Shown here piece after piece: positions 35,525-38,629 of a stretch of 64,000 bases of DNA (position 1 is the first letter of the stretch; each line of letters opens with the position of its first letter). The notes under the pieces are model-generated. The model did not search any database. It saw nothing but the letters and a program-made list of their open reading frames with translations, and was not told the DNA's origin. The position numbers and the translations under genes were made by a program. Source of the stretch: Mesonia aestuariivivens (lineage in GTDB: Bacteria; Bacteroidota; Bacteroidia; Flavobacteriales; Flavobacteriaceae); NCBI RefSeq assembly GCF_019311235.1, contig NZ_JAHWDF010000001.1, positions 310,001-374,000 on the forward strand, given 5' to 3'.

Positions 35525-38500
35525 ATGAGCTACAACTTTAACGAGATCGAAGCCAAATGGCAAAAACATTGGGCAGAACACCAAACCTTTAAAGCGACAA
35601 ACCACAGCGATAAAGAAAAATTTTATGTGTTAGATATGTTTCCTTATCCGTCGGGAGCAGGTTTACACGTGGGGCATCCGTTAGGGTATATTGCTAGTGA
35701 TATTTATGCACGTTATAAAAGACATCAAGGCTTTAATGTGCTGCATCCGCAAGGTTACGATTCGTTTGGATTACCGGCAGAACAATATGCCATTCAAACA
35801 GGTCAACATCCGGCAGACACAACCAAAGTTAATATACAAGGAGGAATTGATAAGTCTGGTAATAAAATTGCTGGTTACCGTAATCAACTCGATAAAATAG
35901 GCTTTTCGTTTGATTGGAGCAGAGAAGTGCGTACCAGCGATCCTAATTATTACAAATGGACGCAGTGGATCTTCATTCAGCTTTTTGAAAGTTGGTACGA
36001 TGTAGCAGAAGGCAAAGCTAGACCAATTGCAGAACTTAGAGCAATTTTTGCTACGGAAGGGAACAGCCAAATCAACGCGGCTTGCGATGAGGATGTAACT
36101 GAATTTTCTACGGAAGACTGGAATGCATTTTCAGAAAAAGAACAAGAAGAAATTCTTTTAAAATATAGATTAACCTACCTAGCGGAAACCGAGGTAAACT
36201 GGTGTCCGCAATTAGGGACTGTTTTGGCTAATGATGAAATTGTAAATGGCGTTTCAGAACGTGGCGGTTATCCGGTAGTTCGAAAAAAAATGAAACAATG
36301 GAGTATGCGAATTTCTGCTTATGCAGAACGTTTGCTCCAAGGGTTAAATGATATCGATTGGACTGAGAGTCTAAAAGAAAGTCAGCGCAACTGGATCGGA
36401 AAATCGGTAGGAGCGTCGGTAACTTTTAAAGTGAACGATCATCAAGATACAATTGAAGTATTCACTACGCGTCCTGATACGATTTTCGGAGTAACATTTA
36501 TGACGCTAGCTCCAGAGCACGAGCTGGTTTCAGAAATTACTACTCCCGTGCAAAAAGAAGCGGTAGAAGCGTATGTTGAAGCAACAGCCAAACGTAGCGA
36601 GCGAGAACGAATGGCCGATGTAAAAACCATTTCAGGAGTATTTACCGGAGCTTATGCTGAGCATCCGTTCACCAAAGAACCAGTGCCAATTTGGATTGGT
36701 GATTATGTGTTGGCAAGCTACGGAACCGGAGCGGTAATGGCCGTGCCTTGTGGGGATCAGCGTGATTTCGATTTTGCAAAACATTTCGAAGGAAAACCAG
36801 GGATGCCAAAAATTAAAAACATTTTTAAAGACGTCGATATTACGGAAGCTGCACACGCCGATAAAGAAGGAACCGTGATCGCAAATTCAGATTTCTTAAA
36901 CGATCTTTCTTATAAAAAAGCTTTAAAACGAGCGGTTGTTGAATTGGAAAAAATGGGTCAAGGTAATGGGAAAACCAATTATCGCCTACGTGATGCGGTA
37001 TTTAGCCGTCAGCGTTATTGGGGAGAACCCTTCCCTGTTTATTACGTAAACGGAATGCCAAAAATGATCGATACGGCTCATTTGCCTATTCAGTTACCAG
37101 AAGTTGAAAAATACCTACCCACCGAAGAAGGAGAACCACCATTAGGTCGTGCCGATGTTTGGGCTTGGGATACACAAAAGAACCAAGTGGTAAGCAACGA
37201 CTTAATTGATGATAAAACTGTATTTCCTTTAGAATTGAATACGATGCCGGGTTGGGCAGGAAGCTCTTGGTATTTCTTCCGTTATATGGAAGATGAAAAA
37301 CGCGATGAGGTTTTCGCTTCACCGGAAGCTTTAAACTATTGGCAAAATGTAGATTTATATATTGGCGGTAGCGAGCACGCCACCGGGCATTTACTGTACG
37401 CACGTTTCTGGACTAAATTTTTAAAAGATCGTGGCTTTGCTCCCGTAGAAGAACCTTTTAAAAAGCTCATCAACCAAGGAATGATTTTGGGAGAAAGTTC
37501 AATTCCACCAAGAGCAATTTTCAGATTAGTTTCGAATTTAGATGGACTAAAAGATTTGCCTGATGATTATTATGAAGTTAAGGCTGATTTGGTTGAAAAC
37601 TCTAAAAGTGTTTTTATATCAGCAGACCTATTAAAAAAAGGAACAAGGTTTATACAAGACAGTCTTAATAGTTTGGATGTTATAAAATCAATTACTCAAG
37701 AATTTGTACATATCATTAAGAATTCATTAAAACTTGAAATAGATGAAGAATCTGTATACGCTCAATATACTGGATATAGCAATCCAAGAATAAATTTAGA
37801 ATTTTTAGTAGGAGTTACGGATGAGTTAAATATTCAAAAATTGAAAAACTCAGGAGATGTAGAGCTAAAAGATGCAATATATTTGGATATAAATGGCCAA
37901 CCAATAACAAGTGAAGATCAAAAATTTCTGTCTTTAAGAGAGGTTGAGAAGATGTCTAAAAGATGGGGTAACGTCGTCAATCCAGATGATATTTGTGTAG
38001 ATTATGGCGCCGATACCTTGCGGATGTATGAGATGTTTTTGGGTCCGTTAGAGCAAGCCAAACCTTGGAATACAGCAGGAATCACCGGTGTACACAACTT
38101 CTTAAAAAAACTATGGAAGTTATACCATAATGACGAAGCGTTTGCAGTAACCAATGCAGAACCAAGTAAAGACTCGTTAAAAACCTTGCATAAAACCATC
38201 AAAAAAGTAATCGAAGATATTGAGAACTTCAGTTTTAATACTTCTGTTTCTACCTTTATGATTTGTGTAAATGAATTGACTTCACAAAAATGTACTTCTA
38301 AAGCCATTCTAGAACCTTTAGCCGTTTTAATTTCGCCTTACGCGCCACATATTGCTGAAGAATTATGGAGTAAGTTAGGAAATGAAGGCAGCGTTGCGTT
38401 TGCCGCTTACCCAAAATTTGAAGAAAAACATTTAAAAGAAAGCTCTAAAACTTATCCGGTTTCTTTCAACGGGAAAATGCGTTTCACCATGGATTTATCA

Positions 38501-38629
38501 CTAGACCTTTCCAAAGATGAATTAGAAGAAATCGTGATGAATGATGAACGTACTAAAAAACAATTAGACGGAGCAACCCCTAAAAAAGTAATCATTGTTC
38601 CTGGTAAAATTATAAATATTGTAAAATAA
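35525..38629 (+). CDS. leuS: leucyl-tRNA synthetase with an atypical leucine-specific region
   Basis: 1034 residues. Landmarks: class I HVGH (48-51); the Bacteroidota-type insertion around 165-210; the CP1 editing domain with TTRPDTIFG and GTGAVMAVP; the catalytic core resuming at LRDAVFSRQRYWGEPF; and a C-terminal anticodon-binding domain from about 840. The signature normally KMSKS reads KMSKR (809-813). Residues about 656-804 (nucleotides 37,492-37,936) replace the leucine-specific domain with a longer sequence I do not recognise. GC there is far lower (64/240 counted at 37,561-37,800 against 98/240 at 37,201-37,440). The frame is intact, and LGPLEQAKPWNTAGITGVHN resumes normally afterwards. 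Presumably the sole functional leuS, unless another copy lies outside. Confidence 0.95.
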   Translation: MSYNFNEIEAKWQKHWAEHQTFKATNHSDKEKFYVLDMFPYPSGAGLHVGHPLGYIASDIYARYKRHQGFNVLHPQGYDSFGLPAEQYAIQTGQHPADTTKVNIQGGIDKSGNKIAGYRNQLDKIGFSFDWSREVRTSDPNYYKWTQWIFIQLFESWYDVAEGKARPIAELRAIFATEGNSQINAACDEDVTEFSTEDWNAFSEKEQEEILLKYRLTYLAETEVNWCPQLGTVLANDEIVNGVSERGGYPVVRKKMKQWSMRISAYAERLLQGLNDIDWTESLKESQRNWIGKSVGASVTFKVNDHQDTIEVFTTRPDTIFGVTFMTLAPEHELVSEITTPVQKEAVEAYVEATAKRSERERMADVKTISGVFTGAYAEHPFTKEPVPIWIGDYVLASYGTGAVMAVPCGDQRDFDFAKHFEGKPGMPKIKNIFKDVDITEAAHADKEGTVIANSDFLNDLSYKKALKRAVVELEKMGQGNGKTNYRLRDAVFSRQRYWGEPFPVYYVNGMPKMIDTAHLPIQLPEVEKYLPTEEGEPPLGRADVWAWDTQKNQVVSNDLIDDKTVFPLELNTMPGWAGSSWYFFRYMEDEKRDEVFASPEALNYWQNVDLYIGGSEHATGHLLYARFWTKFLKDRGFAPVEEPFKKLINQGMILGESSIPPRAIFRLVSNLDGLKDLPDDYYEVKADLVENSKSVFISADLLKKGTRFIQDSLNSLDVIKSITQEFVHIIKNSLKLEIDEESVYAQYTGYSNPRINLEFLVGVTDELNIQKLKNSGDVELKDAIYLDINGQPITSEDQKFLSLREVEKMSKRWGNVVNPDDICVDYGADTLRMYEMFLGPLEQAKPWNTAGITGVHNFLKKLWKLYHNDEAFAVTNAEPSKDSLKTLHKTIKKVIEDIENFSFNTSVSTFMICVNELTSQKCTSKAILEPLAVLISPYAPHIAEELWSKLGNEGSVAFAAYPKFEEKHLKESSKTYPVSFNGKMRFTMDLSLDLSKDELEEIVMNDERTKKQLDGATPKKVIIVPGKIINIVK

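Follow-up and report, generated by a model that had tools for sequence, protein, structure and literature searches.

Aminoacyl-tRNA synthetases serve as universal markers that evolve slowly. Hypervariable domains of receptors and surface proteins in arms races combine a conserved scaffold with a variable core, and their types are shared between species. In the leucyl-tRNA synthetase (LeuRS) of Escherichia coli and Thermus thermophilus, a leucine-specific domain (LSD) lies just before the KMSKS catalytic loop, and we know of no replacement between sister species in these LSDs of the kind reported here. According to excerpted text of PMC5059758, the LSD buttresses the KMSKS loop, guides tRNA and is not absolutely required, and in E. 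coli it matters for tRNA binding and discriminates between tRNA-Leu isoacceptors. The same excerpts describe AgnB2, the self-immunity LeuRS of agrocin 84, as a plasmid-encoded extra copy that lacks the LSD, carries KQSKS in place of the loop motif and is resistant to TM84. Here we describe leuS of Mesonia aestuariivivens (Flavobacteriaceae, Bacteroidota), which lies in a 64,000-nucleotide stretch of contig NZ_JAHWDF010000001.1 (positions 310,001 to 374,000, assembly GCF_019311235.1; hereafter the window). Its LSD is a hypervariable, exchanged module within an essential gene, a phenomenon that is real and larger than first noted in an initial annotation of the window.

The window gene encodes the same enzyme as in E. 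coli and T. thermophilus, with the LSD likewise just before the KMSKS loop, but this LSD is 2-3 times the usual Bacteroidota length and takes unrelated forms between sister species. AgnB2 is likewise a LeuRS altered at both the LSD and the KMSKS motif and so, as far as the excerpts of PMC5059758 extend, provides a precedent for both changes in a resistant enzyme. In the window, by contrast, the LSD is present and enlarged (148 amino acids), the loop reads KMSKR rather than KQSKS, and leuS is a single gene on a chromosomal contig.

leuS occupies positions 35525..38629 of the window on the forward strand, as do all of its parts given below, in one open frame of 1034 amino acids. It is the sole leuS found in the Mesonia genome. 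The left conserved border, NQGMILG (residues 650-656, 37472..37492), is invariant in 16/16 Mesonia sequences. It is followed by the long AT-rich LSD (residues 657-804, 37493..37936), a type not closely shared with any sequence found, and then by the right conserved border REVEKMSK (residues 805-812), which together with the KMSKR catalytic loop spans 37937..37963. The initial annotation had placed a replaced segment of about 150 residues, where 75-80 were expected, in an intact frame and before a KMSKR loop, and each of these points is borne out: the borders enclose 148 residues, 10/16 Mesonia carry 69 residues in their place, the frame is open throughout, and the loop is encoded just after the LSD at 37949..37963.

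Comparison of 16 Mesonia genomes obtained from a genus search reveals how variable this segment is. (G and L codes denote compared genomes and leuS loci, G000 being the window genome; one genome per species was used throughout.) The 69-residue LSDs are 49-94% identical among the 8 of the 10 that were tabulated, while long LSDs of 126-148 residues occur in six genomes (G000, G002, G004, G006, G012 and G013), and all six differ. The window LSD bears only a weak likeness to that of its congener G004 (25% identity across the full segment, E 0.002). The clearest case is the pair G004 and G013, whose enzymes share 99% identity outside the LSD and 48% over 125 aligned residues within it. In 25-codon windows, their nucleotide identity falls to 37%, 47% and 56% in three successive LSD windows, versus 88-100% elsewhere. 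The 100 kb surrounding leuS in these two genomes hold 62 orthologous frame pairs, for which the lowest 50-residue window has a median identity of 92%; leuS is the extreme of the set at 12%, the next-lowest pair standing at 38%.

The pattern extends well beyond the genus. Among the best-scoring (not random) 80 rows listed outside Mesonia from a search of 299 family genomes, 41 leuS have short LSDs of 68-71 residues (including L199, counted short at 69) and 39 have long LSDs of 81-153 residues, the closest two long cores (L171 and L189) being 56% identical. Six loci were dropped from one 80-row set, namely L055, L056, L076, L086 and L120, in which the pattern gave no frame, and L105, in which the motif is missing. 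A Flavobacterium-like genus (the G141 group, probably Flavobacterium judging from the likeness of its sequences to L051) and four genomes of a further genus contribute long LSDs in 29/73 leuS. For this set, 70 of the 118 genomes matching in the Flavobacterium-like search were taken (30 loci plus 40 in listing order, with the truncated G476 and G446 skipped), and L229, which lacks a frame, was dropped to bring 74 to 73. Named carriers of long LSDs include Winogradskyella wandonensis, Euzebyella saccharophila, Flavobacterium orientale, Mucilaginibacter lacusdianchii, Hymenobacter terricola and H. rubripertinctus.

These sequences were assembled into a set of 240, from which the duplicates L224, L245 and L247, together with L048, were left out and to which L129 (G195) was added; L129 was chosen because it matches the window LSD, a choice that favours type sharing. 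A backbone of 150 residues before and 225 residues after the LSD was defined, for which 233/240 sequences have enough flank, and the main set comprises the 205/233 whose flanks are >60% identical to those of the window (38/205 from named genomes, some outside Flavobacteriaceae). Within this main set, 89 leuS carry long LSDs (81-185 residues) and 116 carry short ones (67-79 residues). LSD length is two-peaked, with 3/240 sequences falling between 80 and 89 residues (81, 83 and 89). L179, at 81 residues, counts as long for pairs, labels and KMSKR but stands outside the long cores (>85 residues) used for grouping and Mantel analysis. The initial annotation had described the window gene as a mosaic; the replacement stands, but a one-off event is rejected by the 39/80 family genomes outside Mesonia with a long LSD and by the 89/205 in the main set. 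The outcome that would have refuted replacement, close relatives all carrying the same segment, did not occur. A search of 397 family genomes with the 148-residue segment gave 6 matches at E<=0.01 (the window's own included), and the best non-self match, which is also a LeuRS, lies in G195 (32% over residues 26-138, E 9e-6).

Inspection of pairs with flanks at least 95% identical indicates that long LSDs do not follow the enzyme that carries them. In all 17/17 long-long pairs the LSDs are 20-52% identical and share no type, where sharing of type was defined as a core BLAST match at E<1e-3. The 24 long-short pairs at this distance have LSD identities of 15-40%. For the 78 short-short pairs, median LSD identity is 99% in the 4 pairs with flanks at least 98% identical and 95% in the 74 pairs with flanks 95-98% identical, and the minimum of 48% indicates that some short LSDs change too. 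Mantel analysis of LSD against backbone distance is in keeping with these counts: short LSDs track the backbone (r 0.50, p 0.005, the floor of 199 permutations, n=116), whereas long LSDs do not (r 0.02, p 0.17, n=88). Vertical descent of one expanded LSD alongside the gene is rejected by the sharp borders, the lack of a shared type in close pairs and the absence of Mantel tracking.

Types are instead found in common between distant hosts. The 95 long cores yield 53 similar pairs, of which at most 45 are between genera (genomes being counted apart unless known to share a genus), and fall into 56 groups, 43 of them singletons; shuffled long cores yield 0-2 matches per replicate over 20 replicates. 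Types common to different genera span 69-79% flank identity. At 76-79% flank identity, for example, Mesonia G006 pairs with two genomes of other genera, G169 and G057, and Mesonia G013 with one, G133; Winogradskyella L049 pairs with G469 at 74%. When long and short labels were placed on a FastTree flank tree of the 205, 53 changes were needed versus a mean of 67.5 (range 57-76) in 100 shuffles, all of which were higher; both forms are thus widely scattered. The limits of the exchanged tract are suggested by the first 15 codons on either side of the LSD, where codon identity in 27 close long-long versus 100 short-short pairs is 0.84/0.83 upstream and 0.65/0.65 downstream. No excess of synonymous change adjoining the LSD was seen in close long-long versus short-short pairs. 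Either the swaps stop at NQGMI.G and EKMSK or within a very short distance of them, or differences in the flanks have since been evened out.

Base composition sets the LSD apart as well. The visible AT-richness reported in the initial annotation was counted exactly, at 64/240 G/C in 37,561-37,800 and 98/240 in 37,201-37,440. Over the whole window LSD, G+C is 0.284 and G+C at third codon positions (GC3) is 0.149, versus 0.401 and 0.333 for the remainder of leuS. Windows of 240 bases fall to 0.27-0.28 G+C between 37500 and 37919 and lie at approximately 0.37-0.49 earlier inside the gene. Across the survey, long LSDs average 10.4 G+C points under their own gene (95/96 lower) and short LSDs 5.7 points (142/143 lower). 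The difference is largest in three G+C-rich leuS, where GC3 of the LSD lies 42-56 points below the gene:.397 vs.868 in H. terricola,.475 vs.890 in H. rubripertinctus, and.244 vs.806 for the rest of the gene in the viral-contig locus L288. For comparison, a Hymenobacter leuS with a short LSD shows no such drop (GC3.882 vs.813). The suggestion of a foreign segment replaced within an essential gene is upheld by these AT-rich LSDs in G+C-rich leuS, together with the sharp borders, the lack of a type shared by close relatives and the cross-genus types.

Long LSDs have a loose scaffold in common. Of the 95 long LSDs, 75 contain a strand motif consisting of three hydrophobic residues and S, versus a mean of 24.7 and a maximum of 37 in 200 shuffles. 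In the window, it corresponds to the VFIS strand (residues 696-699, 37610..37621), part of the scaffold kept by most long LSDs and strand 48-50 of the LSD model. A full-length AlphaFold2 model built with 36 rows has a predicted local distance difference test score (pLDDT) of 79.5 overall and of 35-77 by blocks within the LSD, and a model of the isolated LSD, made with 16 named long LSDs, reaches pLDDT 72.9 and a predicted template modelling score of 0.66, with short strands and several helices. This low-confidence LSD model gave no Foldseek match at E<=0.001 and a best second-look Z of 2.4, and the LSD matched no Pfam family. The rest of the enzyme is conventional. PF13603 editing (E 5e-57), PF00133 tRNA-synt_1 and PF08264 anticodon domains all exceed Pfam cut-offs, and a profile match links the window LeuRS with solved LeuRS chains. 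HVGH (residues 48-51) and KMSK (809-812) are invariant over 36 LeuRS sequences, the fifth loop residue of the window being R. A search of its own genome with leuS returned one full match and three partial ones at 25-34% identity. The presence of only one leuS suggests that the enzyme must work, and it is predicted to be competent for leucylation.

The KMSKR loop requires separate treatment, as the initial annotation had included it in the replaced range (37492..37965). Replacement of the LSD is sustained, but the loop as part of the same event is rejected. KMSKR occurs in 19/116 short-LSD enzymes versus 1/89 long-LSD enzymes (the window only), and congener G005 carries it alongside a short LSD, so that R is an ordinary variant at this position. 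In the comparison of G000 with G004, the dissimilar block reaches approximately residue 815, KMSKRWG included. On our reading of these sequences, the enzyme already had KMSKR when it acquired the long LSD, whose right border lay upstream of the loop.

Taken together, we consider it probable that the LSD of Flavobacteriaceae and some other Bacteroidota is a swappable module whose long forms are exchanged and whose driver is selection for difference. A conserved short form of approximately 69 residues would alternate with many long forms of approximately 81-185 residues that share only a loose scaffold. The long forms would be swapped among species and genera at or near NQGMI.G and EKMSK, such that sisters keep a near-identical enzyme with unrelated LSDs; the pattern itself is observed, and its mechanism may be homologous recombination through the conserved borders. 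The window would hold one such long form, in a background that already had KMSKR. The most likely driver would be an antagonist (a phage protein, a competitor toxin or an antibiotic) that recognises the face formed by the LSD and KMSKS and penalises common forms. Near-identical sister enzymes with unlike LSDs hint at an arms race in a supposedly conserved gene. That Flavobacteriaceae LeuRS is an arms-race or recognition locus, at which LSD-binding phages, toxins or competitors make rare forms win, is a serious but tentative possibility. The scaffold and core resemble the pattern of hypervariable receptors, but LeuRS is an essential cytoplasmic translation enzyme without a known attacker. Within the titles and abstract openings covered by a literature search, no description of a hypervariable LSD, or of DUF559 in leuS, was found.

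Several observations weigh against selection-driven exchange. The close pairs are not independent: Mesonia accounts for 7 of the 17 long-long pairs and the Flavobacterium-like group for 6, and 75/78 short-short pairs come from that group, with 22 distinct rows overall. The 53 label changes lie below every shuffle, which indicates that some signal of descent remains. Short LSDs are likewise AT-richer than their genes, so some of this AT bias is normal for an LSD, and L066 and L114, G+C-rich rumen Bacteroidales with another kind of long LSD, show no G+C contrast. There is no known antagonist, and none came to light here: the window LSD matched no PADLOC defence family and had no counterpart in the phage, plasmid and viral sequences searched.

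In a narrower version of the selection reading, LSD replacement would alter the environment of the KMSKS loop, weaken inhibitor binding and so confer resistance to a single class of small molecules that target LeuRS; resistance of this kind was raised in the initial annotation. The LSD is a plausible site for inhibitor escape because it buttresses the KMSKS loop, guides tRNA, is not strictly essential and is missing in AgnB2, which lacks the LSD, carries KQSKS and is TM84-resistant in the excerpts of PMC5059758. However, the LSD is lost in AgnB2 and enlarged here, no self-immune second leuS occurs in 119 relatives, and 56 groups of unrelated forms are hardly needed against a small molecule, which makes this explanation unlikely. 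Dozens of forms are hardly what a small molecule would demand, and a protein antagonist, whether phage or toxin, would fit better.

Drift could in principle produce diverse sequence, were the long LSD a dispensable loop evolving fast and AT-ward under relaxed constraint, with neither exchange nor selection for difference. The excerpted statement that the domain is not absolutely required (PMC5059758) and the AT-richness of both kinds of LSD relative to their genes would agree with drift. It is nonetheless rather improbable given the unrelated, sharply bordered LSDs of otherwise near-identical enzymes, types in common across genera at 69-79% flank identity, short LSDs that are 95-99% identical at equal flank distance, GC3 contrasts of 42-56 points and a strand motif that is kept.

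Mobile sequence within leuS itself raises a further alternative. An in-frame DUF559 nuclease-like domain (PF04480) lies in the editing domain, aligned to approximately window residue 304, in 5/16 Mesonia (L044 of G005, L045 of G007, L046 of G008, L039 of G012 and L047 of G014). The insert occupies one site in 13/209 full-length leuS, with Pfam E of 3e-37 in L044 and 1e-34 in L047, the two tested. Common peptides such as GYMTGGNN flank these inserts, and from sequence the stretch looks like a mobile in-frame insert. Small extra leuS peptides that resemble translated repeat elements, presumably palindromic repeats, are present in L036 (G002), L035 (G006), L039 (G012) and L129 (G195); examples are TLKQVQGDTRHSELDSES in G002, SPSNS..EGEE in G002 and G012, and SPTLSEGKG in the G195 LSD. 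leuS could be a hot spot at which DUF559 inserts and repeat-like peptides act as selfish elements, and repair or co-conversion after cutting would swap the LSD. Favouring this, a DUF559-like stretch also lies inside the long LSD of Bacteroidales L069 and L114 (profile E approximately 4e-5) and, by eye only, of L066, in whose LSD neither profile nor Pfam searches detected DUF559. However, DUF559 accompanies 9/88 long versus 6/121 short LSDs (p 0.18, the 9 including two inside the LSD), so coupling of LSD turnover to these inserts is not significant; the window LeuRS has no PF04480 match in Pfam, and in the comparison of G004 with G013 no tract linking the LSD with the insert site was seen. Selfish swapping is thus quite improbable.

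An internal partner such as the tRNA-Leu set, a regulator or a complex could instead co-evolve with the LSD, in line with the reported importance of the E. coli LSD for tRNA binding and for distinguishing tRNA-Leu isoacceptors (excerpts of PMC5059758). Sister enzymes that are 99% identical would hardly be expected to have different internal partners, though, and the LSDs differ in 17/17 close pairs, which renders co-evolution very improbable. An assembly chimera at the window leuS is a negligible prospect, given that the frame is intact and that, among the 205, a further 88 leuS from many assemblies also have long LSDs.

The source of the long forms was also sought. DNA and protein searches of the window's own genome returned no further copy of the variable segment, and silent cassettes or template repeats as a source of diversity are rejected on the basis of this single LSD copy. 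No repeats occur within 37400-38000. A second leuS was not found in the genome, and two were never found in any of 119 relatives, the 115 with a match having exactly one each. Three viral contigs carry leuS, two with a 67-residue LSD and L288 with 135 residues. In L288:2291-7016 (IMGVR_UViG_3300008885_000007), leuS is followed just downstream by a frame read as a tyrosine recombinase, which probably marks the border of a provirus integrated next to leuS. A second two-form site is present elsewhere in the gene at window positions 35828-35875 (residues 102-117), where an IEGG..KSGNK-like loop is found in G000, G001, G007, G009, G011 and G015 and is missing in the remaining 10 Mesonia.

A swapped domain beside the active site of near-identical enzymes points to some agent that attacks or reads LeuRS at this face. 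Identifying it could bring to light a hitherto unknown class of toxin, phage factor or antibiotic directed at LeuRS. The natural allele set, with 56 groups among 95 long LSDs, makes the question of recognition testable. For phylogenetic work, leuS trees in Bacteroidota should omit the LSD. If the arms-race reading is true, the LSD would be a counterpart of the hypervariable receptor inside the translation machinery.
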